From positions 1-34,780 of the forward strand of contig QJVW01000128.1 of the NCBI GenBank assembly GCA_003235575.1: 34,780 bases of DNA. Reading direction: 5' to 3'. The notes under the pieces are model-generated. The model was not told the DNA's origin. It saw only the letters and a program-made list of their open reading frames with translations, and ran no database searches. The DNA is from Candidatus Eiseniibacteriota bacterium (GTDB lineage: Bacteria > Eisenbacteria > RBG-16-71-46 > SZUA-252). Of this stretch, positions 17 to 34,780 are shown piece by piece (position 1 is the first letter of the stretch; every line of letters starts with the position of its first letter). Position numbers and translations under genes: made by a program.

Positions 17-2671
17 CTACGGCTTGCGGAGGCTTTCCATCCAGTTGACGTAGACGGTCGTGGCCGGGAGCGCGAGGGAGCCGTAGTTGCGCCTCACGTA
101 GAAGCGGCGTCCGTCCGCCGAGACGTCGTAGTTGCCACCGTAGGAGTCGAAGTCCCAGGCGATCCGGGTGAAGAGCTCGCGTGGGTTGCCGAGAGTGAAG
201 TTCGGATTGGTGGTCACGTCCACCGACATCAGGCGGCTTCCGCCGCCGATGAAAAAGATTTCGCTCCCGTCCCGACTCCACTTCGCGTCCCTTCCGCCGC
301 CGGTCGACACCTGCCACTTCCCCGTACCGCCTTCCAGCGGCTGAACGTAGACCTCGCGCCGGCCCGATTCGTTCGAGGAATATACCAGCCAGCGGCCGTC
401 GGGCGAGAAGTGAGCATCCGCTTCGAAAAACGGCGTGGTCGCGATGGGCCGCGGAGCCCCGGTGCCATCGGCGTTCATCACCACGACTCCGCCGTCGACT
501 CCGGCGCCACTGCTCCCGCTGATGCAGGCCAATCGTTTTCCATCCCGCGACCAATCGCTGACGCCGATGTCCCAGTTCTCGGCGTGGAGCAGTGACTCGG
601 CCTGGACGCCGTTCGCGGGCTTGACGTAAATCGCGTCGCGGCCAGACCGATCCGAGTTGAAGGCGATCAGGGCTCCATCCGGCGACCAGACCGGCGCGAA
701 TTCCCCCGCGGGGTCGAACGTGAAGCGCGAGCTGACGCCTCTGGCCAGGTCCGTGATCCAGAGGTCCAGGGTGGTTGCGCCGCGGCTCGTGACCAGCCGG
801 CGGCCGTCGGGCGAGAGTGACACGCCGTACACATTTCCCGGTTCGCCGATCGTCTGCAGTTCCCGACCGTCACGGTCGAGACACACGACCTGGGTGAAGC
901 CGCCCGCCGCGCCCCCTCGGAAGACCAGGGTTCCCTGCGACGTCGAGAAGTCGGCGTTCGAGGACGTGCCCCCGCCGGCCGCGACATCGTCCACGACCGG
1001 GAAGGGATCGCCCGTGAACTTGAGCGCCTTGGCGTCGAACGGATGGGCCAGGAGCGCGCGATCGCGGACATAGATGATGTAGCCCGGCTCGACGTATTCG
1101 ATCCGGCTGAAGTTTCCCTTTTGAAGCGTGACGACCTTGTCGGATTCGAGATCGCCTACTTTGAGGTAGGACTCGTCGGGCTTGGACGTCAAGCCCAGGA
1201 AAAGGAAGTGGCGCCCGTCGGGGAGAAAATGGGGCCACGCCGAACCTGTTTCTCCGTTGGCGCGGTCGATCGTCGTCGCCGGCGTCGGGGATCCGCCACC
1301 CGCGGGTACGCGCATGATGGAATCGGTGGGCGAATCGTCGTAGAGGATGATGCCACGCGTGCCCCAGGAGCCGTCGCCTCGGCTGTTTGACTCGCAGATC
1401 GTCTGCGGAGGGCTCCCGTCTACAGCGATCTTGCGGAGCCGCCCGCTCACCATGTAGGAGAGGTAGCGGCTGTCGGGAGACCAGAAGGGCCTTCCGGCCG
1501 ATTCGGTGCCGGCCATCGGCGTGGAGCCGAGGGACCCGAAGGGGCGGAGGTAGAGGCGCGACGTGCCGGTGCTGTCAGTGGCGCTAAAGGCGATCGTGCG
1601 CCCGTCGGGGGAAACCTTCGGCGTGTCGATGAACGTGATCCCCTCGGGAACCGGTGCGAAGAAACGAAGCGGCTGCGGTTTGGGAGGCCGATGGAGGATC
1701 GTATTCGCCCCGAGCAGGAGCGCCGCCACGATTCCCGCGCCCGCCAACCCCCAGGCGAGACGCTCGCGGGATCGCCGCCGCGCCGACACGGTCGCGGGCA
1801 CGCCCGCCTTCGATCCGGCGTCCCCGACCCACTTCAGCTCCAGCAACACGTCGCGGGCGGTCTGGTAGCGGTCCTCGGGGTCCTTTTCCAGACATCGCAT
1901 CACGATCCGGTCGAGGGCCGGAGGCGAGACGCTGGTCACCGCGGAGATCGGCTGCGGGGTCTCCTTCAAGATCGAGGCGATCAGGCTGGCCTGGCTCTTC
2001 CCCTCGAAGGCGCGCTTCCCCGTGGCCATTTCGTAGAGAACGGCGCCGAGGGAGAAGAGGTCGCTGCGCGTATCGGCCTCTTTCCCCTCGAGCTGCTCGG
2101 GCGCCATGTACTGGAACGTGCCGACGATCGTCCCCTCGGCGGTCAGGGCGCGGCTCATCGTCGGCGAGGCCATGTCGCCCGCCGTCGGCGCCAGGCCGGT
2201 GGCGCGCGCGAGTCCGAAATCCAGGAGTTTCGCGCCCGACTTGGTCAGCATGATGTTGCCGGGCTTGAGATCGCGGTGGATCAAACCCTGGCGGTGGGCG
2301 CGGTCGAGCGCGTCGGCGATCTCGGCGCCGATCTTCACCAGCTCGGGGAGCGGAAGCGGGCCGCGCGCCACGCGGTCGGCGAGCGATTCCCCTTCCAGAT
2401 GCTCCATGACGAGATAATCCATCCCGTCGTGCTGGCCGATGTCGAACAGCGTGCAGATGTTGGGGTGGTTGAGGCTGGAGATGACCTTCGCCTCGCGCTC
2501 GAAGCGCTGGCGGGTCTCCGGGCTGACCGTGAGGTGGCCTTGCAGCACCTTGATCGCGACCGTCCGGTCGAGTCGGGTGTCGCGCGCGAGGTAGACCTCG
2601 CCCATGCCTCCGGCGCCGAGGAGTTGAACGATTTCGTAGGCGCCGAGGCGCGCACCCGATTCCAGGCTCAT
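17..2671 (-). CDS. Serine/threonine protein kinase (PknB-type) with transmembrane segment and C-terminal PD40/TolB-like beta-propeller
   Basis: GAGGMGEVYLARD P-loop, AIKVL, HRDLKPGNIML catalytic loop, DFGLA; TM segment GLAGAGIVAALLLGANTIL; repeated SPDGR/WSPDG.IAF motifs. Confidence 0.93.
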   Translation of the reverse strand: MSLESGARLGAYEIVQLLGAGGMGEVYLARDTRLDRTVAIKVLQGHLTVSPETRQRFEREAKVISSLNHPNICTLFDIGQHDGMDYLVMEHLEGESLADRVARGPLPLPELVKIGAEIADALDRAHRQGLIHRDLKPGNIMLTKSGAKLLDFGLARATGLAPTAGDMASPTMSRALTAEGTIVGTFQYMAPEQLEGKEADTRSDLFSLGAVLYEMATGKRAFEGKSQASLIASILKETPQPISAVTSVSPPALDRIVMRCLEKDPEDRYQTARDVLLELKWVGDAGSKAGVPATVSARRRSRERLAWGLAGAGIVAALLLGANTILHRPPKPQPLRFFAPVPEGITFIDTPKVSPDGRTIAFSATDSTGTSRLYLRPFGSLGSTPMAGTESAGRPFWSPDSRYLSYMVSGRLRKIAVDGSPPQTICESNSRGDGSWGTRGIILYDDSPTDSIMRVPAGGGSPTPATTIDRANGETGSAWPHFLPDGRHFLFLGLTSKPDESYLKVGDLESDKVVTLQKGNFSRIEYVEPGYIIYVRDRALLAHPFDAKALKFTGDPFPVVDDVAAGGGTSSNADFSTSQGTLVFRGGAAGGFTQVVCLDRDGRELQTIGEPGNVYGVSLSPDGRRLVTSRGATTLDLWITDLARGVSSRFTFDPAGEFAPVWSPDGALIAFNSDRSGRDAIYVKPANGVQAESLLHAENWDIGVSDWSRDGKRLACISGSSGAGVDGGVVVMNADGTGAPRPIATTPFFEADAHFSPDGRWLVYSSNESGRREVYVQPLEGGTGKWQVSTGGGRDAKWSRDGSEIFFIGGGSRLMSVDVTTNPNFTLGNPRELFTRIAWDFDSYGGNYDVSADGRRFYVRRNYGSLALPATTVYVNWMESLRKP

Positions 2672-2717: not shown

Positions 2718-3713
2718 CTAGCGCAGGAGGGCGTGCTCCCAGCGGTCCCGGTCGTTGATGAGCGGCTGGAGCGCCAGCATGCCGACGGGACCGATCGAGC
2801 GGGCCAGGTACTTCAACTCCTCGAAATTCGCCCGAACCGAGGAGTCCACGGGGATGTCCATGCCGGCGGCGCGCGCCATGAGGAGTCCCTTGGCGCGAAG
2901 GGAGAGTTCCAGGCGAACGCGCAGGTAGCAGAGGATGTCCGCGACGACCGCGCCCGGCAGCCGCTCCGTCAGCTCGGCGAGATACCGTCCGACCCTGGTC
3001 TCCACGACCTCCCCGGAGAGAATCTGATTCAGGGCCTCGACGTCGCGGTCCATGCCCATGCCCAGCCACGACCGCGTGGCGCGGTCGCTCCGCTCGAACA
3101 CGACTCCCAGCAGGATCGGCATGATCGCGAGGAGGAGCCCCGTCGCGACCATCGGCGGAAGCACGAAGAGGTTGAATCCCGCGTGAATGGTCACGGCGAT
3201 CGCGAACCCGGGGAGGAACCAAAGCGGGGACGGCGCCTCCCGGCGCCCGGTCAAGCCCTTGCCAAGGATCGCGAAGATCGCCGTCGTGGTGCCGTGCATG
3301 ATGGCGGTCCCGAGGCCGCGGATCACCCACAGTCCCGGATCGGTCGATTGGAGCGCGTGGGCGTAATAGAAATTCTCCACGAGGGCGAACCCGGCGCCGA
3401 TGGCGAAACCGTGGATCGCCGCGTCGACCAGGAACCCGACCCGCCGCGTGCGAATCAGCCAGGCGACGAACATCGCCTTGGTCGCTTCCTCCAGGACCGG
3501 CGCGAGGGCTTTGCGCAGGATGTCGGGAGGCACGTGGAGGGGGCCGACAAGGGAGAGGTTGAGCCCCCACGAGATCCCCGCGGCCAGCACGCCGGCGAAC
3601 AGACTCTTGGCGACGTCGCCGCGATGGACCAGCTTGAACGAGTCGAGGAACACGAGCGCGGCCAAGAATAGCGTGACGGGCAGGAAGCCGAGTAGAAGGT
3701 GGAGGCCTGGCAT
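2718..3713 (-). CDS. PrsW-like intramembrane protease family protein
   Basis: Multi-TM protein with LEEATKA (EExxK), HGFAIGAGFALVENFYY, IMHGTTTAI and IHAGFNL motifs typical of PrsW. Confidence 0.82.
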   Translation of the reverse strand: MPGLHLLLGFLPVTLFLAALVFLDSFKLVHRGDVAKSLFAGVLAAGISWGLNLSLVGPLHVPPDILRKALAPVLEEATKAMFVAWLIRTRRVGFLVDAAIHGFAIGAGFALVENFYYAHALQSTDPGLWVIRGLGTAIMHGTTTAIFAILGKGLTGRREAPSPLWFLPGFAIAVTIHAGFNLFVLPPMVATGLLLAIMPILLGVVFERSDRATRSWLGMGMDRDVEALNQILSGEVVETRVGRYLAELTERLPGAVVADILCYLRVRLELSLRAKGLLMARAAGMDIPVDSSVRANFEELKYLARSIGPVGMLALQPLINDRDRWEHALLR

Positions 3714-3735: not shown

Positions 3736-6732
3736 CTACAAGATCTTCAACGAGACCATCCAGTCCCGTCTGGGCCCGACGCCGCGCTCGAAGGCGCGGG
3801 CGACGCCGCCGGACAGCGTGAGCCGCTGGAGTGTGAAGAGCTGGAACCGAATGTCGACCTGGGCGCCGACGTCCGCCACGCGGCTGCGGGAGGCGTCGTC
3901 GTCCAGGTTCGTCACCAGACCGCCCGCGAAGAACGACAGACGCGCCCAGGTCGCATAGAAGTCGAGGTTGCCCAAGCGGCGGAACCGCAGCGGAGGCAGG
4001 TTCCAGTCGACCAGTGACTTCACGAAGTTCCGCCCGCCGATCTCGTTCAGTTCGACGCCCGGGAACGCGTCGTAGTTTCGGTACCGCTTGATCGCGCCGT
4101 CATCCACCCAGTTGTTGCCGAATCCCCCGAAAAAGAAGTTGGAGAAGGGGTCGTCGCGATCGCCGGGGGAGTAGCCGGCCGCGCTCCGCAGCCAGATCGA
4201 GGAATTCTTGATCGGCAGCGGCGTGCCGACGTCGACGGTGGCGAGGCCCAGCGTGGATCCCTTCCACCAGGAGTCGCCCGCGAAGCCCGATCGGACCATG
4301 TTCTGGTAGGCGCCGACGCTCCACTTGATGCCCCGCTCGGCGTCGATGGCCCCGATCGTGGCCGCCAGATTTCGGAAGTTCAGTCGTGCGTGCGCCGCGG
4401 TGAGGAAGTCGAACCCGGGCGGCGTCTCGACGTTCTGATACGCGGGAAGCCGGTCGAGCCCGCCGGATCCGCGCACGCCCGCGTGGAACGTCATCTCGCG
4501 AGGACGATCCCAGATCAGCGTCCGTTCGTAGTCCACCGAGCCGCCGTAGCCCTTGCGACCCGTCTTCGTGGGTCCGACCAAATCATAGAAGGACGCTCCG
4601 TTCCAGAAGCCCTCCACGGTCCAGCGCGGGCGCTTGTAGGTTCCCGACAGGTGCCACCGCTCGTTGCCGGGAAGGCCACGCGACGGCGAGTAGGAAGCGG
4701 AGAGGTCGAAGCGATTCCACTGGAGCGGGTCGGAAATCGACGTGGCCAATCCAACGGCGGTGTAGTCCTTGTACCCCTCCACGATCGGATAGATGGACGT
4801 CGCGCCCAATTCCCAGGTCCGGTAGGGCCCCGACCGCGTCACCAGGGAATCGAGGGAAACGCTGCTGGGCGGGGGTATCTTCCAACCCCGCACGATGCGG
4901 TGATCGTCGGCGATGGTCGCCCCCAGGAACGTGATGGCGCTGACGTCGGATAGCGGGTGCGCGTCCGTGATGGTGGCGGGCACGAAGCCCTGCCCCGTGT
5001 AGCGGAAGACGACGAGCGAATCGCCACCCAGGGGCACGGGGCGGAAGAACCCCGTGTCGGTGTTCGTGACGATGTCCATCTGGTGCGCCTCGAGATCGTA
5101 CCGCCAGATGTTGGAGACACCCGTGTAGTACGAGGAGCCGTACAGATACCTCCCGCTCTCGTCGAAGACGAAGCCCGTGGGAATCGACGCGCCGAACTCG
5201 TGGAGCGTCACGACCGTCGTATCGCGCGCGAGGAGCTCGATCGGCCGCATGATCCGAAGCGACTGCCGACCGCTGATCTCCGCGAACGAACCGACGAGAT
5301 GGCTGCCGTCGGGCGAGAACGCGAGATCGTAGAGATCCTGTCCGAACGGCAACGACAGGACGCGCATCCAGTCCTTGTACGGAGGCATGATTCGCACCAG
5401 GGTCGAGATGCCGTTGAAGTGGCGCACGCCCCAGAGCGAGGAATCCGCGGGATTCCACGCGAGATCCCCGACGCGCAGGTCCTTCTGAAGCGGCCGGGAC
5501 TTGCCCGTCTCCAGATTCAGGGAATAGAGATCACGCCACTCGCCGTTGTCCGCCGTGAAGAAGATCGTGCCGGTGCGGGGATCCCCCGCCAGCGACGTGA
5601 CGAAGTAGAGCGCCGCCCCTTTCACGTCCGCCAGATGCCGCGGATCGCCGCCCTCGAGGGGGATCGCGACGATCTGCCCGAACGTCCCGGGGGACTGCAC
5701 GCCCGCGTAGAGAACGCCCCGCTCCCTGTCGAGAATCGCCTGCGACACGGAGCCCAGCGCGTGCCGCGAGAGATCGCGATACGGCGTCGTGGGATACCGG
5801 CGGATGGAGTCGATGTTCGCCTGCTGGAACGTTCGTTCCCACTCGATCCAGTCGTTCCACCCCTCGTCCAGCGACTTTCCGAAGACCCGGCGGAACTGTC
5901 CGGTGACCGTCCGGGCGGTCCCGGGACGCCGACCCACCCATGCGACGATTTTTTCGGGGCCGTATTCCTCGGCCAGGTAGGAGACGAAGCGGGTGCCGTA
6001 GAGGTACGAGTTCACGCCCACCTGAAAGTCGACCTTGGTCCCCTCGGACTCGAGACCCAGCGGATCGTAGATGCGAGCGCTGTCCCGGACCATGGACCGG
6101 AACACCATCTCGTCGTACGGACCTTGCGCCCGACCCAGCCCGCCGGCCATCCACGTCTCGAAGAAGACGGCCACGCCCTCGTGATACCACCGCGGCGCGG
6201 CGCGGCGCGGAACGGTGAGCCACGAGTAGATCATCGTTTCGGGGTGCTCGTTCGTCTCCCGAATCTTTCCGCGGAACAGGCCGCGGAAGAACTTGTCCGA
6301 TCCCGCGGTCTGATCGACCGCCACGATGTGCACCCCTTCGTGGTTCATCGTGAAATTGAAGCGCTCGTTCGCGGGGCCCGACTCGTAGACCGAATTCGCG
6401 GGCGCGATGTCGACGGACATGAAGTTGCGCGGCGAGGCCGACACGCCGGCGTTGCCGTAGTCCATGGCATCGCCGAGGTAGACGGTCACCTTCTCCCCCG
6501 GCCGGTAGTCGAAGAGCTGCTTGTGAAAGCGCATCGAATTCGCGTAGCAGCGGGCGGCATAGGGGGCCAGGTAGGACATCGCCGGCGAGCTGTAGATCAG
6601 TCGAAACTCGGGCGTCTCGATGGCGTGGAACTCGGCGCGCGCCGCGGGAGCGCCGAGCGCCGCGGACAGCGCGACCGCCAGGGCGAGGGCCGCGGGGCGT
6701 GGGCTGGCGAGCAATCGTTCGATCAGGCGCAT
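3736..6732 (-). CDS. Secreted HExxH (peptidase MA-like) metalloprotease with beta-propeller and C-terminal outer-membrane beta-barrel-like region
   Basis: Signal peptide; NHEGVHIV (HExxH) followed by WYHEGVAVFFE; TolB/WD40-like middle (FSPDGSHLVGSF); C-terminal ~350 aa alternating aromatic strands ending WMVSLKIL. Confidence 0.8.
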   Translation of the reverse strand: MRLIERLLASPRPAALALAVALSAALGAPAARAEFHAIETPEFRLIYSSPAMSYLAPYAARCYANSMRFHKQLFDYRPGEKVTVYLGDAMDYGNAGVSASPRNFMSVDIAPANSVYESGPANERFNFTMNHEGVHIVAVDQTAGSDKFFRGLFRGKIRETNEHPETMIYSWLTVPRRAAPRWYHEGVAVFFETWMAGGLGRAQGPYDEMVFRSMVRDSARIYDPLGLESEGTKVDFQVGVNSYLYGTRFVSYLAEEYGPEKIVAWVGRRPGTARTVTGQFRRVFGKSLDEGWNDWIEWERTFQQANIDSIRRYPTTPYRDLSRHALGSVSQAILDRERGVLYAGVQSPGTFGQIVAIPLEGGDPRHLADVKGAALYFVTSLAGDPRTGTIFFTADNGEWRDLYSLNLETGKSRPLQKDLRVGDLAWNPADSSLWGVRHFNGISTLVRIMPPYKDWMRVLSLPFGQDLYDLAFSPDGSHLVGSFAEISGRQSLRIMRPIELLARDTTVVTLHEFGASIPTGFVFDESGRYLYGSSYYTGVSNIWRYDLEAHQMDIVTNTDTGFFRPVPLGGDSLVVFRYTGQGFVPATITDAHPLSDVSAITFLGATIADDHRIVRGWKIPPPSSVSLDSLVTRSGPYRTWELGATSIYPIVEGYKDYTAVGLATSISDPLQWNRFDLSASYSPSRGLPGNERWHLSGTYKRPRWTVEGFWNGASFYDLVGPTKTGRKGYGGSVDYERTLIWDRPREMTFHAGVRGSGGLDRLPAYQNVETPPGFDFLTAAHARLNFRNLAATIGAIDAERGIKWSVGAYQNMVRSGFAGDSWWKGSTLGLATVDVGTPLPIKNSSIWLRSAAGYSPGDRDDPFSNFFFGGFGNNWVDDGAIKRYRNYDAFPGVELNEIGGRNFVKSLVDWNLPPLRFRRLGNLDFYATWARLSFFAGGLVTNLDDDASRSRVADVGAQVDIRFQLFTLQRLTLSGGVARAFERGVGPRRDWMVSLKIL

Positions 6733-6893: not shown

Positions 6894-7826
6894 CTAGTAC
6901 TCGAGAACCTTGGCGCCCAGCTCCGGCGTGGCCAGCGCGCGGGCTCCGTTATCCATCTGGATCAGCTTCTGGAAGTCGCCGGAGGTGAAGAGCTTGCCCA
7001 GCTCGGGCGAGGCAGCCATCGCCTTGGCGAAGGTTCCGTCCGAGATCAACTTCGCGAAATCCGGGCTCTCGTTCACGAGCTTCTGCCATTCCGCGCTCTG
7101 CGTCAGCTTCTGGTACTCCGCCGGCACCTTCACGCGCTTCAGGTAGTCGACCGGAACGTTCTGGCGCTTCTGGGCATCGATATCGACCGCCACGTTGCTG
7201 CGCTTCTGGGCGTCGATGTCGACGGCCGTGTTCTGGCGCTTCTGAGCGTCGATATCAACCGCCACGTTGTTCCGCTTCTGGGCGTCGATGTCGACCGCGG
7301 TGTTCTGGCGCTTCTGAGCGTCGATATCAACCGCCACGTTGCTGCGCTTCTGGGCGTCGATGTCGACCGCGGTGTTCTGGCGCTTCTGGGCGTCGATATC
7401 CACCGCCACGTTGCTGCGCTTCTGGGCGTCGATGTCGACCGGGACGACCGCCAGCTTGCCCAGCTCACCCGTCTCCGCGAACTTCTGGAAATCACCGCGC
7501 TGTACGAGCGAGAGGAATTCCTCGGTCTTCACCAGGCGATTGAACTCCGCGCTCGCCACGAGCGACTTGAAGTTCTCGTTCGTGACGGTCTTCCGGAATT
7601 CCGGGTTCGTCACGAGACGATGAAACACGTCACTCTGGAGCACGTCGTTCAGCTCACTGTCGCTGAGTACGACATCACTGCCCGAGATCTGCTCCGTCTG
7701 GTACCGGTTGGCGACGCCGATCGTCCCCTCGACGCCGGTCTTCGGCGGGATGACACCGGTCCATACGAGTACGCCGACACCCACCACCGCCACGGCCCCG
7801 AACAGTGCAACGATCCGTTTGTTCAT
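6894..7826 (-). CDS. Membrane-anchored/secreted repeat protein (12-aa VDIDAQKRxNxA array flanked by 9-10-aa FxxLV repeats), unknown function
   Basis: MNKRIV start preceded by GGGGAGG SD; N-terminal hydrophobic segment ALFGAVAVVGVGVLVWTGV; repeats read directly from the translation. ORF track start (7868) lies upstream of the likely start. Confidence 0.85.
   Translation of the reverse strand: MNKRIVALFGAVAVVGVGVLVWTGVIPPKTGVEGTIGVANRYQTEQISGSDVVLSDSELNDVLQSDVFHRLVTNPEFRKTVTNENFKSLVASAEFNRLVKTEEFLSLVQRGDFQKFAETGELGKLAVVPVDIDAQKRSNVAVDIDAQKRQNTAVDIDAQKRSNVAVDIDAQKRQNTAVDIDAQKRNNVAVDIDAQKRQNTAVDIDAQKRSNVAVDIDAQKRQNVPVDYLKRVKVPAEYQKLTQSAEWQKLVNESPDFAKLISDGTFAKAMAASPELGKLFTSGDFQKLIQMDNGARALATPELGAKVLEY
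7164..7439 (-). repeat. In-frame tandem repeat, 36-bp unit x8 (72-bp A/B higher-order period) encoding VDIDAQKR[SQN]N[VT]A
   Basis: Plus-strand units beginning CGCTTCTG at 7165, 7201, 7237, 7273, 7309, 7345, 7381 and 7417, exactly 36 bp apart. Confidence 0.97.
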
Positions 7827-7851
7827 GGTCCTAGCCTCCCCCTGGTACAGG

Positions 7852-8649
7852 TTACTGCCTGGACTCAACCGAGTCCGTCCTCAAAACCGCCCGTGAAGAC
7901 TTTTCCCCCGAACGGAGCTCCAACTCGAGGGGCGCGGTGCGCGCCGCCTCGGTGCTGAGGGATACGGTGAATGTTCCCGCTCCCTGCAACCCGACCCGAA
8001 TCCGGCTCGGGCTTACTTCCACATCGCCCGCCGAAGGCGGGTCGATTCGAAGAGCCGTGGGGTGGAGCGCGCCCCCGTCAAAGTTGGCCACGATTTCCGC
8101 GCCATCCGCTCCACCACCGTTGGCTTCGATCCGAACGACCACACCGTCCGGCGTCCGCCGCGTGCCGGCGGAAACCATCAGGCCGTCGATTTCCAGCGTC
8201 CGTACTTCCACGACCGCGCCGGATACCTGGGCCCCTGGGGGAATCATCGCCCCCGAGATGTCTGAAGAATCAAACCGCGCGCCTCCGAGCATGCCGCCCG
8301 TGACGATCGCAATGGCGGCGGCGCCGACGCCCACGCCGGAACCGAAGGTCAGGGCGCTCCGCCATGCCGGTACCCGAAAGAAACCGCGCAGCGACTCGCT
8401 CCACCCTGCGCCCTGCGGACGAACGCGACGCCGGGCCATTACCGCGCTCATCACGTTCGACTTCAGGGCGGGGGGCGCCTCCTCGAGCCCGACAGCGCTC
8501 AGGGAGTCGAACAATTCCTTCCAGTCGCCATACCGGTCCCGGGCATCCGGGTTTCGGTCCAAGTACGCTTGCAGCGCCGCCATCTCCTCGGGGGTGGCGA
8601 TCCCGTCGAGATCGTTGATGGCTGTCCGGTCGAACTCTTCGCGGTTCAT
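7852..8649 (-). CDS. Anti-sigma factor, single TM, lacking a zinc HxxxCxxC motif
   Basis: Start codon overlaps the sigma-factor stop (ATGA, 8646-8649); N-terminal helical domain, TM FGSGVGVGAAAIAIVTGGMLGG, extracytoplasmic C-terminal domain. Confidence 0.75.
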   Translation of the reverse strand: MNREEFDRTAINDLDGIATPEEMAALQAYLDRNPDARDRYGDWKELFDSLSAVGLEEAPPALKSNVMSAVMARRRVRPQGAGWSESLRGFFRVPAWRSALTFGSGVGVGAAAIAIVTGGMLGGARFDSSDISGAMIPPGAQVSGAVVEVRTLEIDGLMVSAGTRRTPDGVVVRIEANGGGADGAEIVANFDGGALHPTALRIDPPSAGDVEVSPSRIRVGLQGAGTFTVSLSTEAARTAPLELELRSGEKSSRAVLRTDSVESRQ

Positions 8650-9191
8650 ACGTGCGTAATCCCTTTCCGACCGAGGAGCGCCGCCATGTTTTGCCGCGCG
8701 GTATGGAGCCTCGATTTCACGGTTTTTTCCGGCACTTCCAGCACGTGGGCCATCTCCGCCTGATTCAGATCCAGAAAATGTCGCAGGATGATCACCGTTC
8801 GATTGTCCACCGACAGGGACATCAGCGACTTTTCGATGGCTCCCCCGACGAGAACTTCCTCCGTCTTCCGATCGGCGGTGCCACCGTCCGAAAGTTGCTC
8901 GGGGTCGATCTCTTCGAATCTCCGGGTTCGTCCCCGGTAGTTCAGTGATTCGTTGATCCCGATCCGGTAGATCCAGGAGAAGAACCGATACCTAGGGTTG
9001 TAGGAACCGAGCTTCTCGTAGGCCTTGACGAACACCGTCTGCGCGATGTCCTGCGCGTCGTCCCGATCGTTCGTCATCCGAAGGGCCAGGTTGTATATTG
9101 CTTTTTGGTATAGGTTTACAAGCTCTTCGAAGGCCCTGACATCTCCGCTTACGGCCCTGCTTACCAGCTCTTGATCGTCGCGTTGTGTCAT
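8646..9191 (-). CDS. ECF-family RNA polymerase sigma factor
   Basis: Region 2: AFEELVNLYQKAIYNLALRMTNDRDDAQDIAQTVFVKAYEKL...FFSWIYRIGINESLNYRGRTRR; region 4: LNQAEMAHVLEVPEKTVKSRLHTARQNM; likely start MTQRDDQ. Confidence 0.93.
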   Translation of the reverse strand: MTQRDDQELVSRAVSGDVRAFEELVNLYQKAIYNLALRMTNDRDDAQDIAQTVFVKAYEKLGSYNPRYRFFSWIYRIGINESLNYRGRTRRFEEIDPEQLSDGGTADRKTEEVLVGGAIEKSLMSLSVDNRTVIILRHFLDLNQAEMAHVLEVPEKTVKSRLHTARQNMAALLGRKGITHV

Positions 9192-9277
9192 TAGTACAAA
9201 CCAGGGGCCTGCCAGGTTGGTGAGTAAATGCGGGGCCGGCGGCCATGCGGAATGGGGAGGGGACGGCCCCACGCTAA

Positions 9278-9562
9278 CTAGACTATTTTCAATACCTTAT
9301 CCAGGCCGGTATAGACGAAGACGGTCCGGACGCGTGGGTTCATTCCCACCAAACGCAATTCGTGACCGGAACCGGTCACGCGCTTGTGCAATTCCAGGAT
9401 GACCGTGATGCCCGCGCTGGAGACGTAATCGAGCTCCGTGCAATCCGCCGTCACCGGCCCGCTCAAGTCGCGGAGGGCCTTCTGGGCGTGCTCGGCCTGG
9501 GAGGCATCGAGTCGCCCCGAGAGCTTGACCTGACCGTCGTCACCAATATGGATGTCGAACAT
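9278..9562 (-). CDS. STAS-domain anti-sigma factor antagonist
   Basis: VKLSGRLDASQAE...ADCTELDYVSSAGITVILELHKRV; start overlaps upstream stop (TGATG). Confidence 0.9.
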   Translation of the reverse strand: MFDIHIGDDGQVKLSGRLDASQAEHAQKALRDLSGPVTADCTELDYVSSAGITVILELHKRVTGSGHELRLVGMNPRVRTVFVYTGLDKVLKIV

Positions 9563-9987
9563 CAGGCCTCCTGCTCCCCTCTCCACTCGAGACGCGCCGT
9601 CAGCGTGCTCGTCCGGTCGTGGTACTCGTAGCGAAACTCTTTCGTCATCCGCAAGACGAGGATGATGCCGCGGCCGCCGGGGGAGAGTTCGTTTTGCATC
9701 TCCAGCGCCTGCCGCGCGACCTGCGTCGGGTCGAACGGATCGACCTCGAAATCGCGGAGCGTCAGCACCAAGTCGCCGTTGGCACGGCTCATGCCGATCT
9801 CGATGTCCTGGTGCCCCCGGTTGTGGCGAACCAGGTTCGTGAAGAGCTCTTCCAGAACGAGGTCTACCTCGAACGCACCGTCACCCTTCAAGCCTTCCTG
9901 CTCCAGGTACCCCCGCACGAATGTGAAGATCGAGTCGAGGGCATCGATGTCCCTGGGAAATCGGCGAGTCCAAGCCTTAACCGACAT
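9562..9987 (-). CDS. RsbW-like ATP-binding anti-sigma factor kinase (HATPase_c_2)
   Basis: VDLVLEELFTNLVRHNRG (N-box), DPFDPTQ, GGRGIILVLRMTKEFRYEY (G-box); GGAGG SD before MSVKAW. Confidence 0.85.
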   Translation of the reverse strand: MSVKAWTRRFPRDIDALDSIFTFVRGYLEQEGLKGDGAFEVDLVLEELFTNLVRHNRGHQDIEIGMSRANGDLVLTLRDFEVDPFDPTQVARQALEMQNELSPGGRGIILVLRMTKEFRYEYHDRTSTLTARLEWRGEQEA

Positions 9988-10113
9988 GCGGAGCCTCCGG
10001 CGACGATCGCGCAAATCGAAGGTAAGTCGCCATTCTAATGGTAATTGGCGTCGAATGGTGCGAAAACGATCGTAACCTACATGACGTCAATAGTATAGAG
10101 GTGGAGTTCCAGC

Positions 10114-34603: not shown

Positions 34604-34780
34604 TTAGAATCCTCCGCTCGCGCCGCCGCCACCGCTGCGGCCGCCGCCGAATCCGCCGAATCCACCGCCGCCGCCGCCGCCACCGAAGCCACCGCCAAAC
34701 CCGCCCCCGAACCCGCCCCAGGGATCATGCCACCCCCCGCGCCCCCTCCAGGGACCGGATGATCCCCCCCCCCATCGGCG
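34604..34780 (-). CDS. C-terminal end of a TPM-domain (YgcG/DUF477-like) protein, truncated by the window edge
   Basis: In-frame minus translation ...GGWHDPWGGFGGGFGGGFGGGGGGGGFGGFGGGRSGGGGASGGF*, the Gly-rich tail typical of this family, next to lemA. Confidence 0.7.
   Translation of the reverse strand, partial: RRWGGGSSGPWRGRGGWHDPWGGFGGGFGGGFGGGGGGGGFGGFGGGRSGGGGASGGF

Follow-up and report, generated by a model that had tools for sequence, protein, structure and literature searches.

The window, a stretch of 34,780 nucleotides from an Eisenbacteria genome, carries on its minus strand an open reading frame (ORF) for a 310-aa protein in which a membrane anchor is followed by blocks of tandem repeats. 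This gene is one of a cluster of seven, in the order HATPase_c_2 (RsbW-like), STAS, ECF sigma factor, anti-sigma factor, repeat protein, outer membrane (OM) protein and PrsW, with the following features.

9562..10014 (-), RsbW-like HATPase_c_2 kinase/anti-sigma factor; Pfam PF13581; conserved in the cluster
9278..9586 (-), STAS anti-anti-sigma protein; Pfam STAS; conserved in the cluster
8646..9272 (-), ECF sigma factor; Pfam Sigma70_r2 and r4_2, TIGR02937
7852..8649 (-), anti-sigma factor, 265 aa; NCBIfam antisigma NF052375 at 7.5e-10, below the curated cut-off, and synteny
7835..7842 (-), Shine-Dalgarno sequence of the repeat gene; 5/6 match to AGGAGG, strong in nearly all family members
6894..7826 (-), anchor-repeat protein, 310 aa; ORF with homologues in 19/47 class genomes and 59/80 named loci
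7758..7814 (-), transmembrane helix, aa 5-23; mean KD 2.47, topology probably N-in
7647..7826 (-), conserved anchor domain, aa 1-60; motif GTIG..A.RY..(E)QI..DV.L
7446..7658 (-), first predicted helical 9-aa repeat block, F..L units, aa 57-127; 7-8-residue helices, pLDDT ~56-64
7152..7439 (-), eight 12-aa VDIDAQKRxNxA repeats, aa 130-225; 72-nt dimer units
7116..7151 (-), degenerate ninth 12-mer, VDYLKRVKVPAE; from reading the sequence
6897..7115 (-), second predicted helical 9-10-aa repeat block, aa 238-310, running to the C-terminus; pLDDT ~56-79
3736..6732 (-), OM-type protein, 998 aa, directly downstream of the repeat gene; weak Pfam matches to Peptidase_MA_2, Omp85_2 and PD40
2718..3713 (-), PrsW-family intramembrane protease; Pfam PF13367 at 7.2e-17, 62 bits against a cut-off of 23.5

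The ECF sigma gene adjoins an anti-sigma gene whose product has one predicted transmembrane helix (residues ~99-124) and a predicted periplasmic domain of ~140 aa, the arrangement of ECF/transmembrane anti-sigma modules. The OM-type protein reads as a signal peptide, an HExxH peptidase-MA-like domain, a beta-propeller and an Omp85-like C-terminus; these family matches are weak, and the HExxH is invariant in 14 of 14 homologues. It has 378 relatives in GTDB contigs. Just past PrsW, at 17-2671 (-), lies a gene for a Ser/Thr kinase with a beta-propeller-like C-terminal half, outside the conserved cluster as far as we looked.

The seven-gene order is kept in most loci from the window's class and in most of the named loci of a wider sample (described below) that have enough DNA, and about ten phyla have the cluster, ranging from Eisenbacteria to Gammaproteobacteria. 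In L058, L111, L103, L061 and L124, either the STAS/HATPase genes or the sigma pair are found at another place or in inverted orientation. One canonical ECF promoter motif (-35/-10) was not enriched in the cluster. A sequence-only reading of this DNA had placed the repeat gene in an ECF sigma-factor operon; that context proves stronger than claimed, with an order kept across phyla and fusion to the anti-sigma factor in several lineages. Homologues detached from sigma and anti-sigma genes, which would have weakened the proposal, were looked for and found only as two short relatives that lack repeats. The suggested role in envelope stress is likely, as far as sequence can tell.

Anchor and array of the window protein

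The repeat gene (7826..6894, minus strand) opens with an ATG behind a GGGAGG-type Shine-Dalgarno sequence. Reading of the ORF together with TRF confirmed the layout first proposed, in which a 9-aa block, eight 12-mers with a degenerate ninth and a 9-10-aa block follow one another, and the N-terminal hydrophobic anchor was borne out as the transmembrane helix at residues 5-23. The VDIDAQKR 12-mers are consecutive, starting at residues 130, 142 ... 214, and alternate SNVA/QNTA, so that the DNA unit is 72 nt; TRF scores the array at 505 with a 72-nt period and 94% match, and the self-match of the protein (L042 in our set) at the repeat period stands 19 SD above shuffles. Copies 1, 3 and 7 are identical in DNA, which points to recent duplication or conversion. 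In the genome (2.9 Mb, 159 contigs) no second copy of the array was found, the only other match being the opposite strand of the same array. Short G+C-rich tandem repeats (27-nt GCCGCCGCCGAAGCC...) occur near the window end, at 34621-34719.

The window protein had been described as fitting no recognised family, and it remains without a confident repeat-family match in Pfam, NCBIfam or PDB. Its three weak Pfam matches all fall under the cut-offs, none of them of RseB type, and neither it nor several other members gave an informative NCBIfam match. Likewise, the anchor has no trustworthy match in Pfam or PDB, and its Pfam scan yielded none of RseB type. Used alone as query in a protein-pattern scan of GTDB contigs, the window protein matched nothing, because its repeats are lineage-specific. 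A literature search, with subscription papers outside its coverage, found no description of such a protein.

Structure-model confidence is low (pLDDT 49, pTM 0.27), and a Foldseek search with the low-confidence model of the window protein, suggested earlier as a check, returned no PDB match with E < 0.001. Locally, the models support the proposed helical 9-aa blocks, since helix-turn units appear in both outer blocks of the window protein. The solenoid or fibre of short strands envisaged for the VDIDA block is unsupported, the block being modelled at pLDDT < 30.

Distribution of the anchor and turnover of the repeat body

Among members from the window's class, the first ~60-80 residues are conserved and comprise the transmembrane helix and the pattern PPxxGxEGTIGAAxRYQxxQIxxxDVxLxDPxxQAxLQSDxF. 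Alignments of the anchor across phyla show G34, G37, A39, Q46, D51, V52 and L54 conserved at >= 90%. The transmembrane helix is present in 70 of 70 family anchors, and the mean net charge before it, +1.8, implies an N-in orientation.

A first homologue search of 99 related genomes at E <= 0.001 gave matches in 18; a match in G098 (25% identity, in a DNA-repeat ORF) was dropped. The locus occurs in 19 of 47 genomes of the window's class, with both genes detected in 15 and a contig end inside one gene in 4; the contigs of L043 (G044) and L044 (G016) start within the repeat gene. For the wider sample, a profile of 14 orthologues of the downstream OM protein brought in 80 named loci, mostly from other phyla. 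Fifty-nine of these have an anchor match, in every case on the same strand and directly upstream of the OM-protein gene. Ten named loci without an anchor match were read: eight begin inside a repeat ORF, no long ORF is seen upstream in L070, and the neighbour in L073 is a different one. The OM-protein gene of L073, in a record titled Bifidobacterium breve MAG (a doubtful name), is preceded by a histidine kinase and a response regulator, neighbours seen at no other OM-protein locus read. The anchor profile was positive in 20 of 98 genomes from the order of the balneolote G111, in 10 of 51 from the Woeseiaceae, the family of G101, and in 5 of 60 from the Zixibacteria, the phylum of G104; each positive genome in these three samples has a single anchor match.

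Behind the anchor, each lineage carries its own tandem repeat, as read in the class ORFs: LPDADGGKRV units in L025, L027 and L029, LPNPDGARET in L031, VPTENGKTVL in L032, LDAKALAAR in L036, NPGFQKALA in L038, DAAKAV in L039, SNDNFAKLA in L028 and ERATLQEKAALM in L040. Autocorrelation of 73 members gives a smallest period of 9 aa for 40 of them, of 12 for 10, 11 for 6, 18 for 5 and 27 for 2, with other values in the remainder. The commonest 9-mer type, A[NS]P[DE]FxxAL, is predicted to form a 7-residue helix and a 2-residue turn, a unit that runs throughout the body in the low-confidence model of L067 (29 helices including the membrane helix). As modelled, then, the common unit is a 7-residue N-capped helix. 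Matches of repeat bodies to DUF826, Plasmodium HRP, YdcK, LpxA-like hexapeptide and TPR_END_plus were set aside as periodicity or composition. The match of the L058:6079-7842 9-mers to the SPDLSQT 9-residue repeats of the coagulation factor V B-domain (phmmer, 2.5e-14) was taken as short-period convergence.

Comparisons of near relatives show how these bodies change. L057 and L059 (Zixibacteria) have OM proteins that are 90% and PrsW proteins that are 92% identical, and a 27-aa repeat frame in common, whereas all 7 units of the one read RLFQG[DE].. and all 13 of the other RLFKVE..; unit identity is 0.63 within a gene and 0.37 between the two, a value as low as which appeared in 0 of 2000 permutations. 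L029 and L031, with OM proteins 81% identical, carry ten LPDADG... and three LPNPDGAR.. units, respectively. Units are therefore homogenised within a gene and replaced between near relatives. Since the body also tolerates non-helical units, period, length or valency would have to outweigh sequence in it. The defining feature of the family is the conserved anchor with constant replacement of the repeat unit, and not VDIDA, which was seen only here.

In-frame fusion with the anti-sigma factor

The anti-sigma domain and the anchor protein share one reading frame in 16 loci, which lack an anti-sigma gene of its own. Most genomes here are MAGs, and assembly error might account for some of the missing stops. 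The fused lineages are Balneolota, several Bacteroidota/Ignavibacteria and one acidobacterium (the thermoanaerobaculian L092); assembly error is unlikely in Balneolota because one state holds throughout that group. A profile of 49 separate anti-sigma ORFs matches the fused ORFs at E 1e-15 to 1e-37. The fused anti-sigma part is mostly ~92 aa long and has no transmembrane helix; separate anti-sigma ORFs have one in 46 of 49 cases. In fused lineages, therefore, the anti-sigma factor has the anchor helix as its membrane part and the repeat array as its periplasmic part. The OM-protein tree labels 17 rows as fused by counting the ambiguous L037 and requires 4 changes of this state, at least 3 of which are backed by well-supported branches. 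L037 and L052 (Eisenbacteria) look fused, yet their upstream frame seems broken, and we left them as ambiguous.

The anchor ATG within 14 of the 16 fused ORFs is preceded, at normal spacing, by a 5/6 or 6/6 Shine-Dalgarno sequence. Synonymous recoding of the same peptides gave a mean of 5.5 with such a sequence and a maximum of 10 in 2000 trials, and of 707 other in-frame ATGs only 1.6% are so preceded. Having this strong signal before the anchor ATG, the Balneolota ORFs were reclassified from plain fusions to fusions with an apparent internal start. Its retention suggests that fused genes probably give both the fusion and a free arm.

A proposed periplasmic arm and its alternatives

In our proposal, the repeat protein serves a transmembrane ECF anti-sigma complex as its arm in the periplasm and couples envelope state to sigma release, a reading that the genomic evidence makes moderately probable. 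It builds on computed features, namely the anchor, the gene cluster, the in-frame fusion, the fused anti-sigma part without a membrane helix, the internal-start signature and the concerted replacement of repeats. A short cytoplasmic tail and one membrane helix would hold the arm in the inner membrane, a conserved stretch of ~40 residues just outside the membrane would serve as docking part, probably for the anti-sigma factor, and the repeat array, under little sequence constraint, would reach into the periplasm. In the window genome, the arm and the anti-sigma factor, the latter with its own membrane helix and periplasmic domain, are encoded separately; the anti-sigma domain of Balneolota and others, with no membrane part of its own, would borrow that of the arm. 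The arm could sense contact with, or folding of, the neighbouring OM protein, or exposed hydrophobic segments, and would link this state to PrsW, the product of the neighbouring gene, cutting the anti-sigma factor at site 1 and so freeing the ECF sigma factor. In B. subtilis, site-1 cleavage of the anti-sigma factor RsiW is carried out by PrsW (PMC3498285); action of PrsW on the present anti-sigma factor, and the topology, docking partner and signal, are what we infer. Contact with the OM protein is a first guess at the signal, and one that may well be wrong; we make it because cell-surface signalling offers the precedent of a barrel protein whose contact protects the anti-sigma factor (PMC11637429). 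We offer tentatively the wider idea that the hypervariable arm, under concerted evolution, is the sensory part of the anti-sigma complex in a widespread, undescribed class of envelope-stress sensors, with fused genes making both the fusion and a bare arm that competes with or titrates it. Against the arm model, the separate anti-sigma factor of the window, with its own periplasmic domain, could work without the arm, and PrsW and the OM protein may have other roles.

In the E. coli sigma-E system, RseB is a soluble periplasmic protein of two domains that has no repeats, and the site-1 protease is DegS. The window cluster resembles RseA/RseB in having a third gene after those for an ECF sigma and an anti-sigma factor, in its connection with envelope stress and in the gene for regulated site-1 proteolysis nearby; it differs in a partner that has a membrane anchor and repeats and in the nearby protease, PrsW in place of DegS. 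To our knowledge, SigW/RsiW/PrsW of B. subtilis has no repeat arm, no OM protein and no adjoining STAS/RsbW genes. It shares with the window cluster an ECF sigma factor, a transmembrane anti-sigma factor and a PrsW-family protease (PMC3498285), whereas the present hosts are didermic and add the repeat arm, the OM protein and the STAS/RsbW genes. In FoxIRA/FecIRA, the periplasmic domain of a barrel protein protects the anti-sigma factor (PMC11637429), and an OM barrel, a transmembrane anti-sigma factor and an ECF sigma factor occur together as they do here, where the barrel is a candidate; unlike theirs, this candidate does not look TonB-dependent, has an HExxH and a propeller, and is accompanied by a repeat arm. 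The arm would thus be the new part of a system that otherwise operates like known ECF/anti-sigma envelope signalling, in a family that is undescribed as far as we found.

The adjacency of the OM-protein gene, the most constant neighbour relation of the repeat gene, would also suit an envelope tether or spacer, in which the array is a mechanical link or brush from the inner membrane to the OM barrel, signalling is secondary and the sigma factor sets only the amount. A repeat body that tolerates full replacement and copy-number change agrees with such a role, as do a Shine-Dalgarno strength that suggests production in quantity and the near absence of Cys among members. Body lengths from 115 to 741 aa, however, speak against a ruler, a tether would not need fusion to an anti-sigma factor, and in the bodies read no conserved C-terminal motif for OM or cell-wall attachment is visible; we consider this reading unlikely. 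That the repeats are instead products of neutral slippage, tolerated and non-functional, is very improbable: complete replacement of the unit sequences and their homogenisation inside a gene would fit it, as would the DNA-identical copies in the window, but most members, across phyla, have a period of 9 residues or a multiple of it, their frames are uninterrupted, and nearly every cluster seen retains the protein, with bodies of more than 700 aa among those kept. The two short relatives without repeats sit outside the cluster, and none was seen inside it.

The short helices themselves raise another alternative, a chaperone-like client sensor in which the array, in the manner of STI1 domains, binds hydrophobic stretches exposed by misfolded OM or membrane proteins, and occupancy alters the stability of the anti-sigma factor. 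Pfam STI1-HOP_DP (PF17830) matches L058 at 1e-24, L119 at 5.5e-17 and L124 at 7.5e-10, above the gathering score, and the STI1 and ubiquilin matches vanish on 9-mer permutation (four) or reversal; the models show regular 7-residue helices, and STI1 domains bind transmembrane segments (PMC13083928; PMC8010706). With STI1/DP of Sti1/Hop, ubiquilin and Sgt2, the repeats have in common short helices, an NP/DP-type N-cap and this local, order-specific profile match, whereas STI1 is a single cytosolic domain of ~55 residues and the present bodies are tens of tandem 9-mers, probably periplasmic. The match covers only ~25 residues, unrelated families also exceed their cut-offs in these repeats, and the PDB match to STIP1 reaches only 0.089. 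Many members, including the window protein, moreover have large blocks of other types (LPDADGGKRV, VPTENGKTVL, VDIDAQKR). Because the STI1 likeness is local and the window protein does not reach the PF17830 gathering score, we treat client binding, decidedly unlikely in our estimate, as a rival and not as the lead.

If the arm reading is right, an uncharacterised envelope-signalling module is common to about ten phyla, among them Gammaproteobacteria and Balneolota, where a cultured host may exist, and the OM protein with its HExxH, propeller and barrel and the PrsW protease gain a system to belong to. The arm is conserved across phyla in its membrane-proximal part, and its body is replaced even between close relatives; this contrast permits a direct test of whether a sensory domain can depend for its function on period, length and valency and not on sequence.

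The anchor can also exist alone. A repeat-less paralogue of 109 aa, ending WWPTSWFIWRGGW, lies at L125:5178-5507 (+), in the same genome as L069, and adjoins an ORF whose sequence suggests a DksA-type zinc finger and a PP2C (SpoIIE-like) phosphatase; its role is perhaps in partner-switch signalling. A second short anchor-domain paralogue, L126:4819-5382 (+), occurs in the L058 genome, away from the cluster.
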